Assembly (NCBI GenBank): GCA_023248955.1
Contig: JAHFDP010000025.1
Span: forward strand, 1-49,151
Direction: 5' to 3'
Origin: Deltaproteobacteria bacterium
GTDB lineage: Bacteria; Myxococcota; Myxococcia; Myxococcales; JAHFDP01
Length of the DNA: 49,151 nt
Position numbers and translations under genes: made by a program. Position 1 is the stretch's first letter; each line of letters opens with the position of its first letter. The notes below the pieces were generated by a model. The model worked only from the letters and a program-made list of their open reading frames with translations. It was not told where the DNA came from and did no database searches. Positions 3,001 to 44,157 of the stretch are shown in pieces.

Positions 3001-5809
3001 CGGCTATGCCGACTGTGACGGCGATCCGGCCAACGGCTGCGAGTTTCGGGGAGTCTGCCCGTCGCAATGCGCAGCGGGAACCGCCGATTGTAACCACGAT
3101 GCACAAGATGGCTGCGAGGCAACACTCGCCTCCGACGTCACCCACTGCGGCGCGTGCTCAACGGTTTGCCAATATGCGCATGGCGTCGCATCGTGTCTCG
3201 AAGGCGCGTGCCTCTTGTCGCGCTGCGAGCCGGGCTATCAGGACTGCGATGGTGACCCCTCGAATGGCTGCGAGAGCGACGTCCGGATCGACATGAACAA
3301 TTGCGGGCAGTGTAACCAGGCTTGCTTCGTCAAAAATGGACGCGGTCTATGCGCTGACGGACAGTGCTCGCTCATCGCTTGCGACAACCCCTCTACCGGT
3401 GACTGTGACCACAACGTGGCCACGGGTTGCGAGACGGACCTGTACACCCTCGATAACTGCGGCGCGTGCGGCGTGTCCTGCCTCGGAATGCCCCATGCCA
3501 CGCCACGTTGCGACGGGATCTGTGCGGTTGCGCGCTGTGATTCAGGATTTGGCGACTGTGACCAGGATCCCGGGAACGGCTGCGAAGTCGATCTCCTGGA
3601 CTCGCTTGCTAACTGTGGCGGTTGCGGAAAAGTCTGCACGGTCGCACACGGTACGCCCAGCTGCCAGAACGGTAAGTGCGTGGCGTCTGCATGCGATCAG
3701 GGATTTGCCGACTGCGATCAGCAGGGCAGCAACGGCTGCGAACGCCAGGTCGGCTCCGATGTGTTTAATTGCGGACGTTGCGGCCAGGTCTGCGCTGCCG
3801 ATCATGGCTACCCGAATTGTGCCCACGGATCCTGCGGTGTCGCCGCCTGCGCGTCAGAATTCCTCGGCTGCGGCTCATCCTGCGTATTTCCCAGCGCCGA
3901 CTGCGATGGAATTCCAGGGACGGGATGCGAAACGAACCTCCAGTCCGACGATCAAAACTGCGGCGGTTGCGGCGCTGTTTGCGCAGCCTGGGCACACTGC
4001 GAAGCCGGCGCGTGTATTCCATTTCCTTCGAACGGATCGGCGGGGGCGTTTGCGCCGGGTGGAAGCTTGTCGCTCGCGGCCGGCGTTTACCAGTACACGT
4101 CGATTCAGATTCCGGCGGGAGTCGTTGTACGCGTAGTTGGAGGCGCCGATGCGCGGCTCGAGCTTCGCGCCCAAGGCGATGTCGTTATTGCCGGAACGCT
4201 CGACCTCTCGGGATCCGCGGGAGGCGACGCTGATGCCATCAATGGCGGAGGCGGAGCAACCGGATTGCCCGGCGTTTTTGCATCGACCGTGGGTGGATGC
4301 CCCTCCGGTGGTTCCGGCGGCTCTGGCGCCGTGGGAGCGGATAGTTTCGTTTTCGGACACGGCGGATGCGTCGGGATGGGTGGGCAGTTCGGGGGCGGCG
4401 CTGGTGGCGGCTATTGCCGCGGTGGTGGTGGCGGCGGTGGGTACGCTGGCGGTGGCGGCGGATCAACCCCGGGCGGCGCCCTCGGTGCGTGCGGCGGAAG
4501 CAATTACGGTGGACTCGGGGGTTGCGCGGGGGCAGGTGGCAGCAGCGGTGTTCCCGCCTATGAGGCCCGCGACGCGCAGCCTTCTCTCCAGCATCCCTGT
4601 GGGCAGGGCGGCGGCGGCGGGTCGATTGGCGGGACCGCGGCGAGCGATTTGGCCGTTCTCGCAAGCTTCTACGCGGGTTCGGCGGGTGGCGGCGGTGCGG
4701 GCGGTTGTCCCGCGGGCTTGGGTTCTTTCTACGGTGCTGGTGGCGGCGGTGCCGGCGGCGCGCTGCGTATCGTTTCGCCTACGCGCATCTCCATCTCTGG
4801 GGCGATCCTCTCGCGCGGCGGCTCTGGCGGGAACGCCGTTGGCGGCGGTGGAGGTGGTGGCGGCGGTTCTGGCGGGACCATCTGGCTTGGCGCGCCAGTT
4901 CTTGAGGTGTCTGGGCTAATCAGTGTGGCGGCGGGGCATGGCGGCACGCTCGACGCCTACTGCGATGGGTCCAGCGGCGGCGGCGGTTTGGGACGCATCC
5001 GTTTAAGCGCGGACCCTCAACGTTCGAACTTGAACGGTACCTTTGAGCCGGCCATGGCGCAGACTCCCACGGCAGGCCGCACTTACTTGGACCCCTGGCC
5101 GACCCTTTATTCGGCTTGTCCGGAGGGCTTTGCCGATTGCAATGGCTCGCGTGTCGACGGCTGCGAGTCCGTTTTGGGCACCGACCCCTCCAACTGTGGG
5201 GCCTGTGGTATCTCCTGCTCGGTTCCATCGGGCATTTCCGGGTGCGTGGAGGGCCACTGCGTGGTCGCCGCTTGCGACGATGGCCGCGCGGACTGCAACG
5301 CAAATCTCCTCGATGGATGCGAAGTCACTTTAGCCGACGACAGCGCGAACTGCGGACGTTGCGGCGTGCAGTGCGTTTTACCCAACGCCGAGTCGGTCTG
5401 CCGAGCGGGAATCTGCGCGCTGGTGCGCTGTGCTCCCGGCCATGCCGACTGCGACGGCGACCCGACGAACGGCTGTGAAGCGGATCTTTCGACGAGTGAG
5501 CGTGATTGCGGAGGTTGCGGCAACCGCTGCGACGGCCAAGCGGAGACCTGCTGCGCGGGACAGTGCACCTCCATCAACACCATCGAAAATTGCGGTTCTT
5601 GTGGCAATGCTTGCGGTGGAGCGAACGGCGTCTCGGCGTGTATCGCCGGAAGTTGCAGTATGCGTCAGTGCGATCTTGGTTACGCCAACTGCAACTATTC
5701 CGTAGTGGATGGCTGCGAAGCGTACCTTCCTTCGGACGACTACAACTGCGGAAGGTGCAACAACGCGTGCCGCTTCGGAAGACACTGTTCCAACGGCGCG
5801 TGCCGTTAG
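2..5809 (+). CDS. Giant Cys-rich tandem-repeat surface protein (5' partial)
   Basis: The reading frame is open from the first bases of the window, so the true start lies upstream; 1,935 residues are visible. It consists of about 32 copies of a roughly 47-residue module with the signature NGCE, then NCGACG, C, C and DCD, each with many spaced cysteines. Twenty-eight copies come first. A Gly-rich block of about 360 residues follows (nt ~4030-5110), with a beta-rich start and runs of GGGG, and four more copies close the protein. Such modules are typical of secreted or cell-surface proteins of myxobacteria, but their function is unknown; disulfide-rich stalk or adhesin is inference. The last codon pair (Cys-Arg) and the TAG stop lie inside the end of the palindromic element that follows, so the element may have set the present C-terminus. 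No enzyme motif is visible. Confidence 0.9.
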   Translation, partial: ENGCEANLRASSANCGRCGNRCASIHGKAACLSGACVMLSCSAGSADCDGSAANGCETDTSTNADHCGGCDHRCDIAHGTGKCIKGTCGIATCHAGYADCDGIVANGCEVNLDLNPAHCGACRHACSAAHGAARCVAAACAAAACAGSFADCDGNAANGCEANLQSNADHCGACGRACGFTHGVASCVGGACVLSACEPGFGDCDQNPANGCEMALGGLAACPGFCAHGQADCDHVQGNGCEVDTLTDINNCGACGHRCSVAAGYAACVNGVCAIGSCFAGAADCDHDLRNGCETTLALSVDNCGRCGHSCANVAHGSGSCFDGGRCGVGVCEAGWADCNANVVDGCETNINTSVNNCGRCRQACFFAHAGAQCANGTCAMGACQSGWADCDQNPANGCETDLLETRTNCGACGHSCQYTHGSGTCLGGACQLLNCEAGYLDCDRNVANGCEYHQPTPGAACPNSCQIAGFGDCDGNARNGCETDLYTRSNQCGACNHFCILPGTDTTRCVRGVCAADQCSRGRADCDRDATNGCEANLYNGEPNNCGSCGQVCHLAHAVSTCAGARCAIASCETGWTDCDHNPDNGCEWENARLGPNCQLVCPPGRGNCDGNDLNGCEAELATDTANCGQCWRACFSGEHAAEMSCVRGACQVERCDPGYTDCDHRFNDCEASLDSTENCGTCGTRCDYPHAFGACFNRHCQFAICAVGFSDCDHDANNGCEVPTATSAANCGACGRVCNLPHAVPACVNGQCLVGSCDPGYANCDNDSANGCEVDLAHSAGCAGNCRPGFLDCDGLPQNGCETDIRNSNDNCGACGRHCSAANGNAHCSGGICTVATCANGFGDCDRNPSNGCETPLRLKVEASDCGFCGNNCNFTHAAGACSAEGVCTILHCDAGFANCDGNVANGCETNLASPQACGSCLNFCTLAHSTPACDRGRCTIAVCDAGFADCDHAPANGCETPLDSSVANCGACGRVCAPAQASARCAGGRCEIASCDAGYADCDGDPANGCEFRGVCPSQCAAGTADCNHDAQDGCEATLASDVTHCGACSTVCQYAHGVASCLEGACLLSRCEPGYQDCDGDPSNGCESDVRIDMNNCGQCNQACFVKNGRGLCADGQCSLIACDNPSTGDCDHNVATGCETDLYTLDNCGACGVSCLGMPHATPRCDGICAVARCDSGFGDCDQDPGNGCEVDLLDSLANCGGCGKVCTVAHGTPSCQNGKCVASACDQGFADCDQQGSNGCERQVGSDVFNCGRCGQVCAADHGYPNCAHGSCGVAACASEFLGCGSSCVFPSADCDGIPGTGCETNLQSDDQNCGGCGAVCAAWAHCEAGACIPFPSNGSAGAFAPGGSLSLAAGVYQYTSIQIPAGVVVRVVGGADARLELRAQGDVVIAGTLDLSGSAGGDADAINGGGGATGLPGVFASTVGGCPSGGSGGSGAVGADSFVFGHGGCVGMGGQFGGGAGGGYCRGGGGGGGYAGGGGGSTPGGALGACGGSNYGGLGGCAGAGGSSGVPAYEARDAQPSLQHPCGQGGGGGSIGGTAASDLAVLASFYAGSAGGGGAGGCPAGLGSFYGAGGGGAGGALRIVSPTRISISGAILSRGGSGGNAVGGGGGGGGGSGGTIWLGAPVLEVSGLISVAAGHGGTLDAYCDGSSGGGGLGRIRLSADPQRSNLNGTFEPAMAQTPTAGRTYLDPWPTLYSACPEGFADCNGSRVDGCESVLGTDPSNCGACGISCSVPSGISGCVEGHCVVAACDDGRADCNANLLDGCEVTLADDSANCGRCGVQCVLPNAESVCRAGICALVRCAPGHADCDGDPTNGCEADLSTSERDCGGCGNRCDGQAETCCAGQCTSINTIENCGSCGNACGGANGVSACIAGSCSMRQCDLGYANCNYSVVDGCEAYLPSDDYNCGRCNNACRFGRHCSNGACR

Positions 5810-5971: not shown

Positions 5972-7596
5972 TACTTCGCGCAGCGAAAACCGATGTAAGT
6001 GCCGCGCGGGTCGTAGTCGAAGGGCGGGTAGGTCGTGGTTACCGGGAAGTGCTCCCGGTATGCGGAACGCAGCAGGTCTGCGCCGGAGTCCCAATTTCCA
6101 CCGCGCGCCAAACGGTCCGAGCCCGTCAAAACCGCGCAGTCGCTGCACGGCGCTTGGTAGGTATTGACATTCCAATCGAAGAAATCGATGACCCATTCGG
6201 AGACATTTCCGGCTAGGTCATACTGTCCCCAACGGCTTGGCGCGTAGCTGCCGACCTTGGTGTAGGTAGGCGGGCTGACTCCCCAGCCCTGCCAACCAAA
6301 TGAGGCGTTCGTTCCATTGACGGGGACGTCGTTCCCCCATGGGTAGAGCCGGTTTTCTTCACCGCCCGCCGCCGCGAATTCCCACTCCGCTTCGGTCGGA
6401 AGGCGCGCACCTTCCCAGAGGCAAAAGGCAAAGGCCTCCTGGAAATTCACGCAGTGCATCGGCAGCGCTTCATTTTCGCCTGGAGTAGCTGTCCAAATGG
6501 GAGCGTTGATGCCACCGCAAGAGACATCGGCATTGAGGGATTCGCTGGTGCCGGGCAGGCGATAATTCCACTCTTTCTTCCAACCGCTGCCGGGGATTTT
6601 TGGATGCGCGCCGGCCCCTGCCGCGGGTGGAACTCCATCATAGACGTCGACAAATCGCCGAAAGCGACCGACCGTGACTTCGTAAGCGTCGAGTGAAAAA
6701 GCGCTCACCGTGGCGGTGTGCTCCGGCTGATCTTCGCCGATGCAATAGCCGTAAGACGGACAGCTGTCGGCACCATTTTCGGACCGTCCCATCTGAAATG
6801 TTCCGCCGGGGATCGGGAGCAAATTGCAGCACGCCCCCGGGAAAGACGGTGTGCAGGTCGTGGAGACGCAGCCCAACGCTGTGGGGTCGGCCCACATTCC
6901 GGTGAGTCCCGCATCCAGGGCAGTGCCTGCGTCGATACCGGCGTCGACTCCCGCGTCGATACCGGCGTCGATACCGGCGTCGACTCCCGCGTCCGTACCG
7001 GCGTCGACTCCCGCGTCGATACCGGCGTCGATACCGGCGTCGACTCCCGCGTCGATACCGGAGTCGATTCCGGGGCCTAATCCCGAGTCCGCGTCCGTGC
7101 TAGCGTCCTGGCCCGCATCGGCGGCGCCGGCATCTTGCCCAGCGTCGACGAACGGCCCGCCATCCACTTCGCCACCGTCGGAGCCTGCGTCTGCCCGCGG
7201 AAATCCAGCGTCCGGCGCGAAACAGCGAAGGTCGCATCCGTCGTCGGGAACGTCGTTTCCATCGTCGCAAGCTTCGACGCCGCGCTGCACGAATCCGTCG
7301 CCGCAGCGCGCCTCTCGGCAGTCGTTGAGGCAGGCATCAGTGTTGTCGTCGTTACCGTCGTCACAGCGCTCGAAAAGAACCTGGACGATTCCGTCGCCGC
7401 AGGTGCCGACACGCTGGCAGGCAGCCGAACACCCGTTGCCGTTGTCCGTGTCGTTGCCGTCGTCGCAATCCTCGCCTGGATCGACAATGCCATTGCCACA
7501 CAAGGCCGATTTTGTGCTGCAATCGACACAGATCAGGGCCACAACGGCAAAAGTTACTGCGCTGGGGTGGCTTTTTCGGCCGAGTCTCGAAGTCAC
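5971..7596 (-). CDS. DUF4215 / SUMF1 (formylglycine-enzyme-like) surface protein
   Basis: Domain order from the N-terminus: a hydrophobic leader; three DUF4215 Cys-rich repeats (CGNGIVDPGEDCDDGND, CGDGIVQ, CGDGFVQRGVEACDDGND); a low-complexity Asp/Ala/Gly linker of VDAG and IDAG units; and a C-terminal SUMF1/FGE-sulfatase domain (GGTFQMG, LPTEAEWEFAAAGG, YPWGND, DLAGNVSEW, RGGNW, GFRC). The catalytic cysteine region of true formylglycine-generating enzymes, after RGG, reads NWDSGADLLRSAYR here and lacks the cysteine, so sulfatase-activating chemistry is unlikely; binding or display is inferred. I chose the GTG at 7596 because it directly precedes the leader. The frame stays open to an ATG at 7824, but that stretch looks non-coding and would leave only 20 bp to the divergent gene. 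Protein length is 541 residues. Confidence 0.8.
   Translation of the reverse strand: MTSRLGRKSHPSAVTFAVVALICVDCSTKSALCGNGIVDPGEDCDDGNDTDNGNGCSAACQRVGTCGDGIVQVLFERCDDGNDDNTDACLNDCREARCGDGFVQRGVEACDDGNDVPDDGCDLRCFAPDAGFPRADAGSDGGEVDGGPFVDAGQDAGAADAGQDASTDADSGLGPGIDSGIDAGVDAGIDAGIDAGVDAGTDAGVDAGIDAGIDAGVDAGIDAGTALDAGLTGMWADPTALGCVSTTCTPSFPGACCNLLPIPGGTFQMGRSENGADSCPSYGYCIGEDQPEHTATVSAFSLDAYEVTVGRFRRFVDVYDGVPPAAGAGAHPKIPGSGWKKEWNYRLPGTSESLNADVSCGGINAPIWTATPGENEALPMHCVNFQEAFAFCLWEGARLPTEAEWEFAAAGGEENRLYPWGNDVPVNGTNASFGWQGWGVSPPTYTKVGSYAPSRWGQYDLAGNVSEWVIDFFDWNVNTYQAPCSDCAVLTGSDRLARGGNWDSGADLLRSAYREHFPVTTTYPPFDYDPRGTYIGFRCAK
6928..7072. repeat. 12-bp coding repeats encoding the DAG linker
   Basis: Imperfect 12-bp units alternate between forms such as GATACCGGCGTC and GACTCCCGCGTC. 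On the minus strand they encode IDAG, VDAG and TDAG units. The unit is a multiple of three, so copy changes would lengthen or shorten the linker without a frameshift. Confidence 0.85.
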
Positions 7597-13803: not shown

Positions 13804-16800
13804 ATGGTCCTGTCGCATCAGCGTGCGTTCGTCCTGGCCGTTTTCTTCCTGAGCGTCCAGGCGTGCCGTAAACCGTCGGGCGGTTCGCACCCGGGCGCGC
13901 CCGCGGACGCGGGCACGGACGCAGGATTCGATGCGGGTTCCAAAGACACGGTCGCGCCAACGTGGCCCAACGATGCTGGGCTGACCGTAACGACAAGTGG
14001 TCCCACGAGTGTCGAGCTCGCTTGGTCCGCGGCGGCGGATGACGTCGACGTGACGCATTACAAAGTAATACAGGATGATGTGCTGCGCCTCGAAGTCGAC
14101 GGCTCAACGAAAGGCATCCACGCTGGCGGATTCAAAGCAGGAAGCACGCACACGTTCGAAATCGAAGCTGGCGACGCGGCCGACAACTGGTCCTCGGGCG
14201 GCCCGAAGGCGACCGTAACGCTCCTTGTTCCGGATCCAAAAAATATTGCGCCGCCTGTCGCTCAGGGCGTTACGAGCACCCTGTTTGATTCCGCGTCCTT
14301 TCTCTTTACCGGCGACGATCCGCTTCAAGCGGGCGTCAAACCAGGCACCATCGAACCCACGCGCATTGCGCTCATTCGCGGCCATGTGATCGATCGCCAA
14401 GCACAGCCGATCGCCGGAGTGAACGTCAGCATCGCCGACCATTTGGAGCTCGGGCATGTCGCGAGCCGCAGCGACGGAAATTTCGAGTTGGCAGTCAACG
14501 GCGGAAGTCTGCTGCGCATTCATTTCGAGAAAGACGGCTACATCGCCTCGGAGCGGCAACTCGACGTCGCGTGGCAGACCTACCGCAATGCGCCCGACGT
14601 GGTCCTCGTTGCATACGACACACAGGTCTCAACCATCGATCTCGCGGCGTCGACGTCAGTGCAAACGGCGCGCGCCAGCGTGGTGTCGGACGTCGACGGC
14701 AGCCGCCAAGCGACGGTGCTCTTTCCCTCGGGCGCTGCCGCGGCCATGACGCTTCCGGACGGCTCCTCGAAAATGCTCTCCACGCTGCATGTACGCGCCA
14801 CGGAATTCACCGTCGGCGATTCGGGGCCCAACGCGATGCCCGGCACGCTTCCGCAAGACAGCGCTTACACGTACGCAGTCGAGCTCTCGGTGGACGAGGC
14901 CGTGGCCGTCGGTGCCAAGGACGTGGAATTTAGCCAGCCCGTCTATTTTTATCTCGAGAATTTCCTCGGGTATCCGGCAGGCGTGTCGGTGCCGATGGGT
15001 TACTACGATCACGCCAAGGGCGCCTGGATCGCCTCAGACAACGGGCTCATCATTGCAATACTAAGTATTACAAGTGGCCGCGCCGATCTCGACGTCGATG
15101 GGAGCGGGACGGTGGCCAACGCGCGCACGCTTGCGCTTTTGAACGTCACGGACGCCGAACGCGCGCAACTCGCGAGCCTTTACAAAGTGGGCCAGAGCCT
15201 GTGGCGCGCCCCGGTGCAGCACTTCTCCGAATGGGACGCCAACTGGGGCTGGGCGCCCGACTGTGAATTTTCCGAGTGCATTGCCAAGCCCCACATCGAC
15301 GATCCGCCGCTCGATGATCCCTGTCCCAACTGCGGTTCGCAGATCGACACCGAGAATCAAACGCTCGGGGAAGGGATCTCCATTCTGGGGACGCCGTTTC
15401 AATTGCGTTACATGAGCGATCGCGTGCCGGGGCACAAAGCCGATCGCTCGATCAACATCCGCCTCACCGGCGACCGCGTTCCCGCGAAATTGAAATCGGT
15501 GGCGTTGGAAGTTGAGATCGCCGGCCAGAAATTTTCGAGCGCCTATTCGCCGGTAGCTAACGCCGTGGTCAATGTTCCGTGGGACGGGAAAGACGTCTTT
15601 GGCCGCGCACTGCAAGGACGGCAGCCCGTTTCTGTCCGCGTTGGCAACGTGTTTCCCATGGTGCGCGTGCCGATTTCGCAATTTGGCTATCGCGGAAATG
15701 GATTGGCGCTGATTACGCCCCAAACCAACGAGCGATCGGTGCGCAATTCGCTCACCGTCTGGAAGGAGACGACCACCTCGATCGGCGGCCTCGACGCACG
15801 GACGGAGGGACTTGGAGGATGGACGCTCAACGTTCATCACGTTTACGATCCCGTGGGCAAGACGCTCTTTCTGGGCGACGGAAGTAAACGCACTGCCGAA
15901 AACATGAACGCGGCGGTGACGACCTTCGCTGGAACGGGCACAGGGTGCGACTCCGGTTCCTGCGGTGAAGGAGGCGCAGCCACCAGCGCGCTGATGACGA
16001 CGCCCTCGCGCGTGGCGGTCGCTTCGGACGGCGCGGTGTTCATCCTCATCCAAGGCAACGGCGGCTACGTGATTCGGCGCGTCGACCGCCAGGGCATCAT
16101 CACGACGATCACAGGTCTCGGCACGGACCGCGGTGACGGCCCCGTTGCCACGCGCGCGCTCAAGGGAATCACCGACATGGTCATTGCACCTGACGACAGT
16201 CTTTACGTTTGCGATTGGGAAAACAACCGCGTCCAGCGCGTCGTGCCCGACGGCAATGTGACGACGGTCGCGGGAACCGGAGTGCGGGGATTTTCCGGCG
16301 ACGGCGGGCCAGCCACGTCGGCGCAACTCGCCGCGCCACGCGGAATTGCCCTGGGCAGCGATGGTAGTCTCTACATCGCGGAAGAAAGCAACAGCCGCGT
16401 GCGGCGCGTGACGCCGGACGGCAAGATCACCACCGTTGCAGGCAGCGGTGGCGACTGCGCCTACTGGTCTGGCTGTGGTGACGGTGGCGCGGCCACCAGC
16501 GCGGACCTCGGCAGCGCGGAGTACGTGGCCGTCGCGCCCGACGGCGCGCTCTACATCTTGGGGAACTCCGGCCAGAAGTTGCGGCGCGTGGGCATCGACG
16601 GAATCATCAACACGATTGGTAACGTTCCGGGATCCAACGGCGGTTACGGCGACGGCGCGGATCTCGCGCACACGCAGATCTCGTCGATCAAAGACATGAA
16701 GTTTGGTCGCGAAGGAAGCTTCTACTTTTCCACTTCCGATGGTGCCCACGATTTCGTTCGTCGCGTCGACTTGCAGGGAATTGTCACCACGATCGTTGGC

Positions 16801-38118: not shown

Positions 38119-40266
38119 TTACTGCGCCGTCGCCGCCATCGCGAAGGCCAATTCGTCCGCTGAGCGCGCCAGATCCGCCTTGAGCATGTCCGCGCCACCA
38201 TGGCCGGAGTTTTTCTCGATCCGCAGCACCACCGGGCCACCCGTCGTCGCCGCTTGTAGCGCGGCCGCAAACTTGCGCGCGTGCATGGGGTCAACGCGAT
38301 CGTCGCTGTCGGCCGAGAGCATCAGAAACGGTGGATAGCGCACGCCCGCTTTAACGTGGTGGTAGGGCGAGTAGGCGTAGAGCGTTTTGAACTGCGCGGC
38401 ATCATCGGGCGAGCCGTATTCTTCCGCCCACGTTTTTCCCGAGCCAAAGAGTGTGTAGCGCACCATGTCGAGGAGCGGCACGCCGCAGATCACCGCGCCG
38501 AAAAGTTCGGGATGCTGCGTGGTGAGCGCGCCCATCAAAAGCCCGCCGTTGGAGCGGCCGACGATGGTGAGCCGGCTGGCCTTGGTCGTGCCGTTGCCGA
38601 TGAGCGTCTGCGCGGCCGCGGCGAAATCGTCGAAGACATTTTGTTTATTCGCACCCATGCCCGCGCGATGCCAATCCTCGCCGTATTCGCTGCCGCCGCG
38701 AATGTTGGCCAGCGCGAAAACGCCGCCGTGCTCGATCCACGGAATGACGCTCATGCGAAACGTGGGCGTCTCGGCTATCTGAAAACCACCGTAGCCCCAC
38801 AGCATGGTGCGCGCGGATCCGTCTTTCACGAGGTCTTTTTTGTGCACCACGAACATCGGGACGCGCGTGCCGTCCTTCGAGTTGAAAAAGATCTGCTCGA
38901 CCACGAGGGTCGAGGAATCGAGCGGCACCTTCGGCCGGAACCAGAGGTCCATGGTGCCGCGGGATATCGACACTGAGTATATCTCTCGCGGAACAGTGAA
39001 GGACTCGAAGGCGAAAAAGGCCTCGTCTTCGTCCTCGTTGCCGGAGATGCCATCCACCGATCCGATGGCCGGAAGTTGGAGCTGGTTCACGAGCCTGCCG
39101 TCGAGCGAGCGGACTTCCAATCGGCTCGAAGCATCTTGAATGGTGCCGATCACCAGATGGCCGCCGATGATGGCCATGCTGTCGAGCGTGGCGTCGCTGC
39201 GCTCGGGGACGATCGCCTTCCAGTGCGCGGGTTCGGGATGCGCGGGATCGACTTCCACCACGCGCCAGCGCGCCGCGCCGTCGTTGGTGCGCGCGTAGAT
39301 TTTTCCTTGGAAGGCGGTCGGTTCGAAGAGCGAGCCGCGGCCCACGGAGAGCGGTTTCAAATCGCCTTCTTTGCCGCCGCGTATTTCATTGTAATACACG
39401 TCGGTGGAGTTCCAGCCATGCTGGATTTCGATGAACAGAAAGCGGCCGTCGCGCGAAAGTCCCGCGCTGAGAAACGTCGAGGGATCGCCGGTGCGCGCGT
39501 GGACGAGGCGGTCTTGGCGCGGGTTTTCGCCGAGACGGTGAAAGCGAATTTCAGAGGTGCCAGGACGTTCGGAGACGGGGATTTTCGGATCGACCGGAAG
39601 CCACGTGTAATAGAAACCGTCGCCCGCGGGCGTCCAGGAAGGCTCCGCGTATTTCGCGCCTTCGATGGTGTCGACGTCGCTCTTCTTGCCGCTGGCGACG
39701 TCCATTAAATGGAGCGTGGCCTCGTCGGAGTTGTTGCGGTGAACGGCGTAAGCGACGGTTTTTCCGTCCCAGGAAACCGACCAGGTGCCGAGCGAAACGC
39801 TGCCGTCCTCGGACCAGGTGTTGGGATCAAAGAGGACCTGCTCGGCGCCGTCCTTGCCTTCCTTCCAGCAGACGATGGCTTTCTCGCGCGTGGCCAAGCG
39901 GCGGGCGTAAAAGTAGCGCGTGCCACGGTGCAAGAGTCCGCTCTGCGTGTCGATGTAAGCGAGCGCGCGGAGGCGCGAGAGGATGGATTCCCGCTCGGGA
40001 AGCGTGCCGAGAAAATCGCGCGCGGACTTGTCTTGCGCTGCCATCCACGATTGCACTTCGGTGGATTTTTCGTCTTCGAGCCAGCGGTAAGGGTCGGCGA
40101 CCATTTGCCCGTGCAATACATCCGTGATCGGTTGTAATCGCGTGGCGATCGGCGTCGGACGGGTAGTGGTGCTGGTAGTGGTGCTGGTAGTGGTGCTGGT
40201 AGTGGTGCTGGTGGTGGTCATGGTGGCGCAGCTGGCGAGGAGGAGGAAGCGCGTGTGGAGTTTCAT
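38119..40266 (-). CDS. S9 prolyl oligopeptidase, lipoprotein form
   Basis: The 715-residue serine peptidase cleaves short peptides after proline. The family beta-propeller is followed by the hydrolase domain with Ser in [10 protein letters not shown] (~569), Asp in [10 protein letters not shown] (~650) and His in NSGHGGADM (~685), at spacings normal for the family. The leader ends LLLASCAT, so it should be lipid-anchored. Between the lipobox and the propeller lies a Thr/Ser linker of repeated STTT units encoded by a 12-bp tandem repeat. DPYRWLEDE, the usual first conserved motif of the family, follows that linker. Envelope-anchored peptidase action on imported or prey peptides is inferred. 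Confidence 0.92.
40162..40209. repeat. 12-bp tandem repeat encoding the STTT linker
   Basis: Four exact copies of GGTAGTGGTGCT, plus a partial unit, encode STTT repeats on the minus strand. Copy number change keeps the frame and alters linker length only. Confidence 0.92.
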
Positions 40267-40357: not shown

Positions 40358-40399
40358 GAAAAAACCAAAGGGCGGCGGAAGCGCTCGGCTCCGCCGCCC
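40358..40399 (-). terminator. Intrinsic terminator for the switch lipoprotein gene
   Basis: A perfect 10-bp stem GGGCGGCGGA / TCCGCCGCCC is followed on the minus strand by CTTTGGTTTTTTC. It lies 12 bp beyond the stop codon of the lipoprotein gene at 40412. Confidence 0.8.
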
Positions 40400-40411: not shown

Positions 40412-41565
40412 CTAGTCGCAGTTCAGCTGAATATCGGCGTCGGTTTGGCTTTTATCGAGTTGTTGGAAATCGACGGTGGGGAGTTTGGCCGGACCGGCGA
40501 CTAGGTTTGGGTCTCCGTACTTCATTCCTGTAATGATACCCCCCGGGTTATCGTTCGTACGGCTGCCCCCCTCAATATCGACACCGAACCCGGACGCCTT
40601 TTTAAAGCCCGTAATCTCATAAGTGCTCATATCGCGCGACGTATTGGAGATGTTCGCTCCCGTGAACGCCTGCACTGTGGATTCCGCCGGGCAGATGACT
40701 TTTGAGTTCCACACCCCAGAAAGCGACGAGTCCAACGACATCTCAAAACTCAGGACGTACGGTTTGTTGTCGGGATCAAGCGCTTTGAATGCACCCCTTA
40801 TGATCACGTCACCGCCACCTCCGCCGTTGTCACCGCCACCGCCACCACCACCGCCGCCCGGGTCCGAGCACGTGCCGCCACTCTGGCCAGGCTCCGTTGG
40901 GTCCGCCCAGGTGCAGAGGTTGTCTTCGCAAACGGTAGTGTCGTGGTTGTAGTCCGTGCAAGTGGCATCGACTCCGCCAGGACAGCTCGCAGGGTTGGCC
41001 GCCATGCCACCTATCGGAGGGTTAAAGCAGTCGCTCTTTCGCTCCCAAAAATTCGCAATCTCCGGTTGAGCGCCTGAACTACCCGGCAGGATTTGGCAGC
41101 AAATCGTGTCGTTATCGCTGTTATCGCCTATGGCATTGTCCGAGCAGGTGCCGGGGCCGAGCGTACCGGTGCCAGGTTCCGTCCAGCCGCACGCGTTGGC
41201 CTCACAAATCTGCTGGTTGTGGTTGAAATTGCCACACGTCGCGTCGCCACAGTCCGCCCTGTCAGCCGCCTCTTCGCCTACGTCGCCGTTGCTATTAAGA
41301 CTGAGACAGTCGCTCTTCGTGTCCCAGAAATCCGGAATCTCCGCGATTGCGCCGGCTTGGTGGTTTGTTTGATTGATGTGGCAGCAGACCGTGTTTCCGC
41401 TCTCAACATGGGAAGCACTCTTGGCGGGCGTCTTGGATTTCGCCGCGCATGCCGCGGCGAGCGCGATCAGCGTTATAGCGAATAGCGAATAGCGAATAGC
41501 GAATAGCGAATAGCGAATAGCGAATAGCGAATAGCGAATAGCGAATAGCGAATAGCGACCTTCAT
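40412..41565 (-). CDS. Predicted phase-variable Cys-rich lipoprotein (off as assembled)
   Basis: The ATG at 41565 follows GGAGG by four bases. After MKV come eleven 7-bp units that read AIRYSLF in cycles. With 11 units the frame ends at a TAA after 30 codons. From 41479 to the stop at 40412 another frame is open and starts AITLIALAAAC, the core and lipobox of a lipoprotein leader. The mature part has two repeats of about 85 residues (CCHINQ...EIPDFWDTKSDC...CGW; CCQILP...EIANFWERKSDC...CTW), a Gly-rich spacer and a C-terminal domain ending QLNCD. With 9 or 12 units the start and body would be in frame (about 380 residues). The body alone has a first possible start only at 41005, inside the second repeat. 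Surface lipoprotein with on/off control is inferred. Confidence 0.75.
41480..41556. repeat. Heptanucleotide tandem repeat (11 x 7 bp), probable phase switch
   Basis: Eleven perfect copies of GAATAGC (GCTATTC on the coding strand) are joined without interruption. The unit is not a multiple of three, so each change in copy number shifts the frame. All seven codons made by the repeat are sense codons in every frame, so the tract itself never stops translation. Confidence 0.95.
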
Positions 41566-41721
41566 ACTACCTCCAGGGACTGCAGGTTGGCAATCTGTTG
41601 TTCAAAATAACACGTTTGAAAATTCGGCCAAAATCCTGCTTGTCGGGGGGCGCACTCGCTGGCCGCCTGAGCACATCAGAGACGGAGCGGCGCCAGAAAA
41701 AGCAGGCGCCGCTCCGGTCGC

Positions 41722-42063
41722 TCATTTCCGAAGGGCTTTGAGCATCTGCTTGAGCCGGATGGCCAGAGCCTGAATGTCCCGCGCCTGCTCTTCGGCCACC
41801 GCCCCAATCGCAGCGGCTAAATCAATCGCGCCCGCGGTTTCGTGGAGCGAATTGTTGGACTGCACGAAATACTTTCGCCTCAGCGCCACGCTGTCATTCG
41901 GCAGCCCCTCGCAGAGATTCAAGAACGCGCTCTTGGCCGCCCGTGTAGCCTGATCGCGCAGCTCTGCATCGCGAATATCCGCCAGGTGCACCAGCCGCGC
42001 GATCTCCCGCGCCACCTGGTAGGCATCCATTCGTTGGAACGACATCAAGGTTTCCTTCTGCAT
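41722..42063 (-). CDS. Four-helix-bundle protein (S23/TIGR02436-like)
   Basis: The 113-residue protein starts at the ATG at 42063, eight bases after GGAGG. It has the family pattern: FQRMDAYQVAREIARLV, ELRDQATRAAKSAFLNLCEG, RRKYFVQSNNSLHETAGAID, and a helical end (QALAIRLKQMLKALRK). Relatives are encoded in intervening sequences of 23S rRNA and as Avd of diversity-generating retroelements; they bind nucleic acid. Here no rRNA and no reverse transcriptase is near. The ribosome binding site and start codon lie inside one arm of a 27-bp inverted repeat. A 5'-truncated copy lies at 42409-42605. Confidence 0.82.
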   Translation of the reverse strand: MQKETLMSFQRMDAYQVAREIARLVHLADIRDAELRDQATRAAKSAFLNLCEGLPNDSVALRRKYFVQSNNSLHETAGAIDLAAAIGAVAEEQARDIQALAIRLKQMLKALRK

Positions 42064-42125
42064 TTTGTCGACCTCCTTGCCCCCGGGCGGCCACAGCCGG
42101 AGGTCGACAAAATGCGGAAGGAAAC
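42050..42125. repeat. 27-bp inverted repeat around the four-helix gene start
   Basis: Arms at 42050-42076 and 42099-42125 differ at one position and flank a 22-nt loop. Each arm holds, reading outwards, GGAGG, GTCGAC, AAAATG and GAAGGAAAC, so a ribosome binding site and a start codon exist in both directions. The leftward one starts the four-helix gene; the rightward one opens a frame without recognisable product. Confidence 0.9.
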
Positions 42126-42200
42126 GCTGGCACGACATTGGCGTCATCGACGATCCGTCGAGGTCGATTTGTCGATGGTCGATTCTCGCGGACGACCGGA

Positions 42201-42242: not shown

Positions 42243-42408
42243 ACTACGAGCCCGACCTCGAAAATCGACTATAGACCGCGATTCACTCGGTGCTCCCACG
42301 ATCCTGCCGTGCGCCCAAAATCCCGTCTGTCGGGGGGCGCACTCGCTGGCCGCCTGAGCGCATCAGAGACGGAGCGGCGCCAAAAAGAGTCGGCGCCGCT
42401 CCGGTCGC

Positions 42409-42605
42409 TCATTTCCGCAGGACTTTGAGCATCTGCTTGAGCCGGACGGCCAGTGCCTGAATGGCCCGCGCCTGCTCTTCGGCCACCGCTCCAATCGCGG
42501 CGGCCAAATCGATCGCCCCCGCGGTTTCATGAAGCGAATTGTTGGACTGCACGAAATACTTTCGCCTCAACGCCACGCTGTCATTGGGCAGTCCCTCGCA
42601 GAGGA
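42409..42605 (-). pseudogene. Truncated four-helix-bundle gene copy
   Basis: This copy encodes only the last 60 or so residues, from CEGLPNDSVALRRKYF to the stop, nearly identical to the intact gene. The N-terminal helix, the start and the ribosome binding site were lost in the 235-bp deletion, so the product is unlikely to be made. Confidence 0.85.
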
Positions 42606-42790
42606 TCCGTCGAGGTCGATTTGTCGATGGTCCATTCTCGCGGACGACCGGACGCGGACGACCGTCGACCATCGATGGCCGTCCACGTCCACGTCCGCGA
42701 CTACGAGCCCGACCTCGAAAATCGACTATCGACCGCGATTCACTGGGCGCTCCTCACAATCCTGTTGCGCCCCTTTCGGGGGGCGAGTGT

Positions 42791-43402
42791 TCATCGCCCC
42801 TGCACGAGCTCCTCGAGTTTCTCCGCCACGAGCGTGCGCAGCCACTTCGCGGGAATCCGCTTTACCCACGCTCTCGCCACCCCAACGCGGAACCGCGCCG
42901 GCAGTTCCAGCTCCGGAAGCGTCGTGAAAAGCCGACTTCGACGCGTCGAGAGATACAGCACGTCGAGCAATGCCTTCTCCGGCGTGGCGAGCTTGACCGT
43001 GGAGTCGGGTCGCACGTCGAAACCTCCAAAGAATTCCGGCGCGACGTGGTGGATGCTGAAAACGCCGTCCGTCGTTCGAATGCGCTGCGTTCGATCGAGC
43101 GATACCGCGTACACCACCGCCGGAATCTGGCTCACCATTCCGTGCAGGTAGAGCGCTGTCTGGAGCGACACGTAGCTTGGCTGCGGCGCCGTGAGAAATT
43201 CGGGCAGCGCGAGCGGATCGATCGGCGGACGAATCGCCCAGAGTCCGTGCCGAACGCGCGAAATCATGCCTGCCCCGGCCAGTCGAGCCAGGGTGTTGCT
43301 GGCTTGCGCGATGGGCATTCGCAAGAGCGCCGCCGCGTCCGCCGTGGCGACTGCGGGCGTCTCAAGCTCACGCAGGCGCCGCAGCGCTTCGAGGGCCGTC
43401 AC
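42791..43402 (-). CDS. AbiEi-family antitoxin
   Basis: The 203-residue protein starts at a GTG at 43402 that overlaps the stop of the nucleotidyltransferase gene by four bases (GTGA). The first 60 residues form a winged-helix DNA-binding domain (TADAAALLRMPIAQASNTLA, then RHGLWAI). The AbiEi body follows: LPEFLTAPQPSYVSLQTALY, IPAVVYAVSLDRTQRI, FSIHHVAPEFFGGF and ATPEKALLDVLYL. In known type IV systems this partner represses the operon and counteracts the toxin. An upstream extension of the frame to 43450 is unnecessary given the overlap. Unlike the usual order, it is the second gene. Confidence 0.85.
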   Translation of the reverse strand: MTALEALRRLRELETPAVATADAAALLRMPIAQASNTLARLAGAGMISRVRHGLWAIRPPIDPLALPEFLTAPQPSYVSLQTALYLHGMVSQIPAVVYAVSLDRTQRIRTTDGVFSIHHVAPEFFGGFDVRPDSTVKLATPEKALLDVLYLSTRRSRLFTTLPELELPARFRVGVARAWVKRIPAKWLRTLVAEKLEELVQGR

Positions 43403-44157
43403 GACGGCCGATCCAGGGCGTCCACCACGCGCAGCTGCAAGGCTTCCCACATCGCCGGCGATGCGTAGGTCTCGGCTTCTTCGACCGGAAGGTAGGCCGC
43501 AACCTGGCTCTGAAAATCGTCATAGGACAGCTCAAGCGCGCGCGCGATTGCCTGTTTGCTGGTGCGAGCGGAGCCCGAAAAGGCCGCGGCATCTGGTCCC
43601 GACTGGCCCAGCAGGAGTGCCAAGTCAAAAACATCGCGCGCTTGCGCCTGCATGCGACCAGCCAGCGCCGCGACTTTCTGGTCAATGGCGGCGGGGAGCA
43701 GGTAGTGGCAGGCCAGGACCGGCGGGGTGCGATGGTGAGCAACGAGTGTCGGTGAAACCGCATCCAGCTTGGATTCGCCGGTCGTGCCCCGGTGAGAAAA
43801 TTCGATCTTCGTCCGTAGCTCGACGGAGCGTCCCTCGACAGCCAATCCAACTTTCCAGCGCTGCGTGGTTTCGGTTTGTTTGGGCGCCGTGAACGCGGTG
43901 ATGCGAATCCCTGTGCTGCGCAAGAGCAGCGAGAGCGCTGGTCCTTGGAGCAGCTTGTCGACGCGCGATTTCACCGAATGCGGCGACGCCTGCAGAACGT
44001 CGATGTCAACGTCTTCGGAGTAGCGTGGGCTGCTGAAGAAGAAACGCAGATTGCAGCCGCCCTTGATGATGAACTTTGCTTTATCGGGGCCCGTTGCGAG
44101 CAGCCGGACGAAGTGCAGGTGGAAGATTTCGACGAGCTCTCGGTCGGTAACGGCCAT
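43399..44157 (-). CDS. AbiEii-family nucleotidyltransferase toxin
   Basis: The 252-residue protein is of the AbiEii/DUF1814 nucleotidyltransferase family, which modifies tRNA or other targets with nucleotides. Motif I is KGGCNLRFFF with the GG pair, motif II YSEDVDIDVL provides the acidic pair, and the late conserved block is IDQKVAALAGRM followed by RDVFDLALLL. It starts at the ATG at 44157 and is joined to the antitoxin gene by a four-base overlap. In most AbiE operons the antitoxin comes first; here the toxin-like gene does. An A/T-rich stretch with two direct repeats lies just upstream. Confidence 0.87.
   Translation of the reverse strand: MAVTDRELVEIFHLHFVRLLATGPDKAKFIIKGGCNLRFFFSSPRYSEDVDIDVLQASPHSVKSRVDKLLQGPALSLLLRSTGIRITAFTAPKQTETTQRWKVGLAVEGRSVELRTKIEFSHRGTTGESKLDAVSPTLVAHHRTPPVLACHYLLPAAIDQKVAALAGRMQAQARDVFDLALLLGQSGPDAAAFSGSARTSKQAIARALELSYDDFQSQVAAYLPVEEAETYASPAMWEALQLRVVDALDRPS

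Follow-up and report, generated by a model that had tools for sequence, protein, structure and literature searches.

A lipoprotein gene in the window (the whole stretch of DNA analysed here, 49,151 nucleotides from a Myxococcia-class bacterium) is probably a translational phase-variation, or contingency, locus that operates via slipped strands, with several exported proteins affected in this manner. A contingency switch at this site had been proposed in the preliminary description of the DNA, and our analysis supports that proposal through the arithmetic of the reading frames, three more genes of the same construction, and paralogs that lack the repeat and start in frame.

Reading frames across the repeat

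The relevant elements, in the order in which they are transcribed, are the following.

41570..41574, minus strand: Shine-Dalgarno-like GGAGG, with a 4-nt gap before the ATG (from the sequence)
41563..41565, minus strand: ATG start codon, with AAG GTC as the next two codons (from the sequence)
41475..41558, minus strand: perfect heptanucleotide array with the unit TCGCTAT, 84 bp or 12.0 units long (100% matches in Tandem Repeats Finder)
41447..41473, minus strand: remaining signal peptide TLIALAAA-C, which includes a lipobox-like LAAAC and in the assembly is not in the frame of the ATG (body-frame translation)
40412..41449, minus strand: body of the mature lipoprotein, with 345 residues counted from the lipobox Cys, plus stop (translation)
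40370..40399, minus strand: terminator-like hairpin with a T-rich tail directly 3' of the stop (consensus scan, 11 pairs, 9 of them G-C), weak on its own given that shuffled sequence averages 1.9 such sites

The GGAGG, the start, the three codons and the 11 perfect 7-bp copies of the preliminary description are thus all present on the minus strand, the array containing 11 whole units when it is read in the CGCTATT phase. Translation from the ATG of the assembled sequence yields MKV followed by AIRYSLF repeats and terminates after 30 codons. At this length the ATG frame is not the body frame, which past the array reads ...AITLIALAAA-C and, in agreement with the earlier claim of an open but displaced lipoprotein body, continues for 353 open codons to a stop codon at 40412-40414 (minus strand). 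No ordinary start rescues the body because the first ATG, GTG or TTG in its frame, at 41005, lies far beyond the leader. A TAG stands immediately upstream of the array in the body frame, and from stop to stop this frame contains no ATG before codon 187; an alternative body-frame start was accordingly ruled out.

Simulation of unit changes on the sequence showed that the two frames are joined by the gain of one unit or by the loss of 2, 5, 8 or 11, the open lengths being 13, 10, 7 and 4 units in the TCGCTAT count. The arithmetic given previously (9 or 12 units open, 10 and 11 closed) holds when units are counted as CGCTATT. Also as described before, the array translates into a cycle of the heptapeptide AIRYSLF in all frames. 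Because the unit is 7 bp long, three units encode AIRYSLF whichever frame is read, so that the leader tolerates changes in length. The four-unit version has the leader MKVAIRYSLFAITLIALAAAC, a lipoprotein signal peptide of normal length, and its lipobox cysteine closes the signal peptide MKVAIRYSLFAITLIALAAA-C, as judged by pattern and not by a predictor. The lipobox was called by eye, and its residue at −3 is A, which is rarer than L.

Under the proposed mechanism, replication slippage in the stretch from the start codon to the lipobox would add or remove 7-bp units. With 12.0 units, ribosomes entering at the ATG would halt at the early stop and no lipoprotein would be made, whereas at any of the open lengths the frame would reach the TLIALAAA-C signal peptide, with export and lipidation of the product. 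One length in three would connect the start with the body, and the in-frame lengths would differ in the n-region only, with the hydrophobic end and the lipobox kept constant. The structure of the gene is that of a contingency locus: the repeat is perfect, has a non-triplet unit and a slippage-prone length, and lies between start and body; in simulation, gain or loss of units toggles between the full protein and an early stop; and the intact downstream frame appears, by pattern and by eye, to encode an exported or surface-related product. From these features of the sequence, we infer that the repeat slips in living cells, that the gene switches reversibly, and that its product is exported and lipidated.

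The body itself consists of two cysteine-rich modules, a Gly-rich linker and a C-terminal domain, and its GC content at the third codon position is 0.675 vs 0.548 and 0.525. It matched no family in Pfam and had no meaningful relative among the solved structures in the PDB, where the weak matches were antibody-fragment linkers aligning to the Gly-rich stretch and were discarded. The structure model built from the single sequence (pLDDT 33) is too poor for the fold to be judged.

Repeats in front of other exported-protein genes

We listed the perfect short tandem repeats in 2.11 Mb of unmasked sequence, equivalent to 55% of the window's genome. The window array is the longest of them and is therefore no product of chance. 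Among the non-triplet repeats, those ranked second and third by length are (GCAC)8 in L115 and (CCGTTCG)4.6 in L119, and each of the top three starts no more than 7 nt away from an ATG, fronting a gene for an exported protein. With the shorter L114 there are four such genes, carrying a heptamer x12, a tetramer x8, a heptamer x4.6 and a heptamer x2.6, respectively, the last array being too short for frequent slippage. The three loci other than the window gene are as follows.

L115:14735-14766 (G000:C27), minus strand: (GCAC)8 at the ATG at 14768; encodes a Dickkopf-like cysteine-rich lipoprotein whose frame is displaced and becomes open at 7 or 10 units
L119:5507-5538 (G000:C31), minus strand: (CCGTTCG)4.6, with the ATG at 5542; encodes an exported TIG-domain protein of ~1,300 residues, likewise displaced in frame and open after the loss of one unit
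L114:7567-7584 (G000:C26), minus strand: (GCTACTC)2.6, with the ATG at 7591; encodes a probable paralog of the window lipoprotein, again displaced in frame and open after the gain of one unit

All four bodies are intact yet out of frame with their ATG in the assembly, and a change of a single unit (+1 in the window and L114, −1 in L115 and L119) opens every one of them into a lipoprotein-type signal peptide. The leaders opened in this way are MTVATRYSLLALALSAGC in L114 (+1 unit), MHARTHARTHFVRSLLFLVALTGC in L115 (−1 unit) and MSVRRSPFAVALSAAC in L119 (−1 unit). Purine-rich, possible ribosome-binding sites precede the ATGs of the window gene, L114 and L115; the sequence upstream of the L119 ATG contains no clear ribosome-binding site.

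Signal-peptide-like segments, as defined by a regular expression, make up 0.75% of the surveyed DNA and contain 3 of the 15 non-triplet repeats vs 1 of the 53 triplet repeats. L119 was missed by the regular expression, its open frame beginning far upstream, and its addition by eye brings the non-triplet count to 4. When the window locus is removed and L119 is retained by eye, 3 of 14 remain (binomial ~5e-4 with a 1.5-fold margin; Fisher 0.026 against the triplet repeats). Because the sample is small and the calls were partly made by eye, we treat this over-representation of non-triplet repeats in leaders as supportive but not conclusive. A separate scan for lipoprotein leaders displaced in frame from an ATG returned L114 as its sole repeat-bearing find, using a pattern so strict that it recovered neither the window locus nor L115. 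Further loci may be present in the ~45% of the genome outside the survey. A different arrangement was seen at L133:10145-10160 (G000:C45), where (CGAT)4 lies just 5' of the ribosome-binding site of a TIG-family lipoprotein gene, possibly as a repeat acting on expression level.

The window switch would be one of a small set, with at least three other exported-protein genes carrying a 4- or 7-bp repeat straight after the ATG. We lean, if only slightly, towards the broader view that this Myxococcia-class bacterium possesses dispersed contingency loci built on unrelated 4- and 7-bp repeats, which were placed independently after the start codon within export signal peptides and would turn several lipoprotein families (cysteine-rich, Dickkopf-like cysteine-rich, and the ~1,300-residue TIG proteins) on and off at random. 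The benefit would presumably lie in cell-to-cell diversity of surface proteins, for example against phage, prey or competitors.

Origin of the repeat and alternative explanations

Repeat-free paralogs of L115, L119 and, probably, the window gene have ordinary in-frame starts. In-frame relatives of L115 exist in L102, L139 and L086, and 33 other genomes of the class gave matches to it. For the L119 family, we found 15 matches in this same 3.8-Mb genome, mostly 68-78% identical in their N-terminal parts and with TIG domains, and the family is distributed over G000 contigs C31, C45, C78, C106, C73, C115, C75, C112, C1, C34, C37 and C94. The relatives in L133, L163, L191, L158 and L200 combine an in-frame ATG with a lipoprotein-type leader, and this large family of exported TIG-domain proteins is possibly one of surface antigens or adhesins. 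The window protein is, judging from the sequences, probably related to that of L114, the similarity being a weak local match obtained with composition correction off, and probably also to the product of another gene, in L158 (MHLIRHWSLFALIFFAACLGCAKKAADKVGKASAHV). The window, L114 and L158 leaders are of a common R-(Y/W)-S-L-(F/L)-A type and are followed by a similar stretch past the Cys.

The most economical account is that codons of the leader gave rise to the heptamer and that it is not a mobile repeat that landed there. This agrees with a pattern search of the whole genome, in which GCTA(C/T)TC tandems occurred only in the window and L114 leaders. A search through 145 genomes of the order turned up the window array in the window's own genome and in none of the other 144.

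Growth from leader codons would also fit a neutral history, in which a chance duplication of the heptamer within RYSLFA codons expanded and shifted the frame, leaving a recent pseudogene with no selected, reversible switching. The RYSLFA leader type of the probable paralogs shows how the heptamer could come from ordinary codons, and in the assembly each of the four genes is OFF, a state that also fits decay and that would arise at random with a chance of ~0.2. We nevertheless consider neutral expansion unlikely: all four bodies are intact, one of them with a frame of ~1,300 codons; in unrelated gene families, the equivalent position is taken by unrelated units of two lengths (7 and 4 bp), the heptamers alone being of three different sequences; and triplet-unit repeats, which would be harmless in leaders, are not concentrated there.

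Decidedly less probable is an assembly error concealing a fixed, in-frame number of units, in which case the product would be a lipoprotein made constitutively and possessing a long n-region. A perfect array of 84 bp is hard to size with short reads, and the genome is split into 116 contigs, in which 100-base gaps are filled with N. The arrays of L114, L115 and L119, however, are 18-32 bp long, fit well within a short read and should be sized correctly, and they are out of frame as well; moreover, an array of 12 non-triplet units after an ATG stays slip-prone even if it has been mis-sized.

The same heptamer is found in other bacteria. We detected it in 14 stretches of a viral collection and in 58 genome contigs (the search demanded ATGA shortly upstream), and most of these foreign arrays are intergenic, for instance upstream of nuoD-like genes of Rhizobiales (a respiratory-complex-type name assigned by eye). 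Because the heptamer is common elsewhere and mostly located between genes, the motif alone is no sign of a switch. Its copy number really does change at orthologous sites: in the viral collection, L012 has 4.43 units vs 7.43 in L025, exactly three apart, with flanks 95-98% identical, and two species of Mesorhizobium have, at one site, 15.9 (L032) vs 5.7 (L036) units. An independent case is L074:3836-3867, from an Elusimicrobia MAG, where GCTATTC x4.6 lies in frame within a TPR lipoprotein leader, MKKNTLFAIRYSLFALPLLLAAC.

Least plausible of all is that such a dispersed intergenic heptamer, of the gene-near kind known from Xanthomonas and Nostoc (PMC4692102), inserted at the front of the window gene with a regulatory role or none and no connection to the frame, because within this genome it is confined to the window and L114, in leaders in both cases, is absent from the 144 other genomes of the order, and has unrelated repeat sequences as counterparts at the same position in L115 and L119.

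Neighbouring features and relation to known switches

Several other features of the window were recorded. A prolyl oligopeptidase gene (38119-40266, minus strand), closest to PDB 2bkl, which we take to be the Myxococcus xanthus enzyme, contains a 12-bp repeat (40162-40218, 4.8 copies) that encodes TTTS repeats straight after the leader and permits only in-frame changes of length. Whole-genome kinship puts the host in an order that includes numerous genomes of 9-13 Mb, and this, together with the 2bkl match, points to the Myxococcia and Myxococcales. Two 23S-rRNA-IVP (four-helix-bundle) gene regions with common flanks lie at 41632-42147 and 42326-42672, the second gene being shortened. The heptamer probably does not travel with the neighbouring 23S IVP-type gene (41722-42147), the repeat being absent elsewhere in the genome except for L114. 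At 42791-44157 (minus strand), an AbiEii-type nucleotidyltransferase gene (43399-44157) adjoins a gene in the antitoxin position (42791-43450), likely forming an AbiE toxin-antitoxin pair. An imperfect 12/36-bp tandem repeat with the unit GCGTCGATACCG, in ~12 copies, occupies 6929-7089. No plasmid homology of the window was found.

With respect to known switches, the preliminary description had invoked the logic of opa genes; the position in the leader and the proposed switching of frame fit the comparison, but the closest heptanucleotide precedent is neuO, not opa alone. In neuO of E. coli K1, units of AAGACTC begin two nt past the start codon and encode RLKTQDS heptads, and the gene is on only at multiples of three (PMC3046976; PMC13001214). 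This polysialate O-acetyltransferase gene of prophage CUS-3 thus resembles the window gene in having a heptanucleotide VNTR after the start, one length in three on, and a heptapeptide independent of frame. It differs in that neuO encodes a prophage enzyme with the heptads on the mature protein, whereas the window repeat is located in the export leader of a lipoprotein; the unit, the protein and the class are all different, and variation has been measured in neuO, whereas the window locus is known from assembled sequence. The Pfam search gave no sign of homology between the window body and the neuO O-acetyltransferase.

The opa repeat encodes the core of the leader. Likewise, the window repeat lies in an export leader, and in both cases several genes per genome carry one device. 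The opa genes of Neisseria switch a surface protein through the frame by means of pentanucleotide CTCTT/CTTCT repeats (PMC5320596), in contrast to the 7-bp TCGCTAT of the window, and they share one unit, whereas the units here differ between loci. Opa proteins are outer-membrane barrels and not lipoproteins; in the window protein, the lipobox and the cysteine-rich modules of a body that belongs to no Pfam family argue against an opa-type beta-barrel, the poor structure model notwithstanding. The window locus would work like neuO and opa and belongs to neither family.

The frame logic of L115, with its (GCAC)8, is that of the tetranucleotide contingency loci of Haemophilus influenzae and Neisseria (AAGC in autA), which also have a 4-bp unit; the unit and the gene are different, L115 being a cysteine-rich lipoprotein with class-wide relatives. 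The GGGAATC-type heptamer arrays known from Xanthomonas and Nostoc are similarly perfect and near genes, but they are intergenic, G-rich, dispersed and under-represented in coding regions, unlike the window array, which lies in a leader and is nearly unique in its genome (PMC4692102). Phase variation as such is known in a myxobacterium, namely the yellow/tan variation of Myxococcus xanthus, for which PMC3986340 describes no repeat mechanism and mentions gene conversion as a possibility. Our literature search found nothing on repeat-based phase variation in Myxococcota.

Taken as a whole, the mechanism is one already known, and we found no precedent for the setting, which combines lipoprotein leaders, mixed repeat units and a myxobacterium-type host. 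Repeat-driven contingency loci are known mainly in host-adapted pathogens. If our interpretation is correct, this strategy would extend, at the level of export leaders, to the Myxococcia, a lineage noted for predation and multicellularity, and the loci would represent a testable molecular source of cell-to-cell surface diversity in a bacterium of this class.
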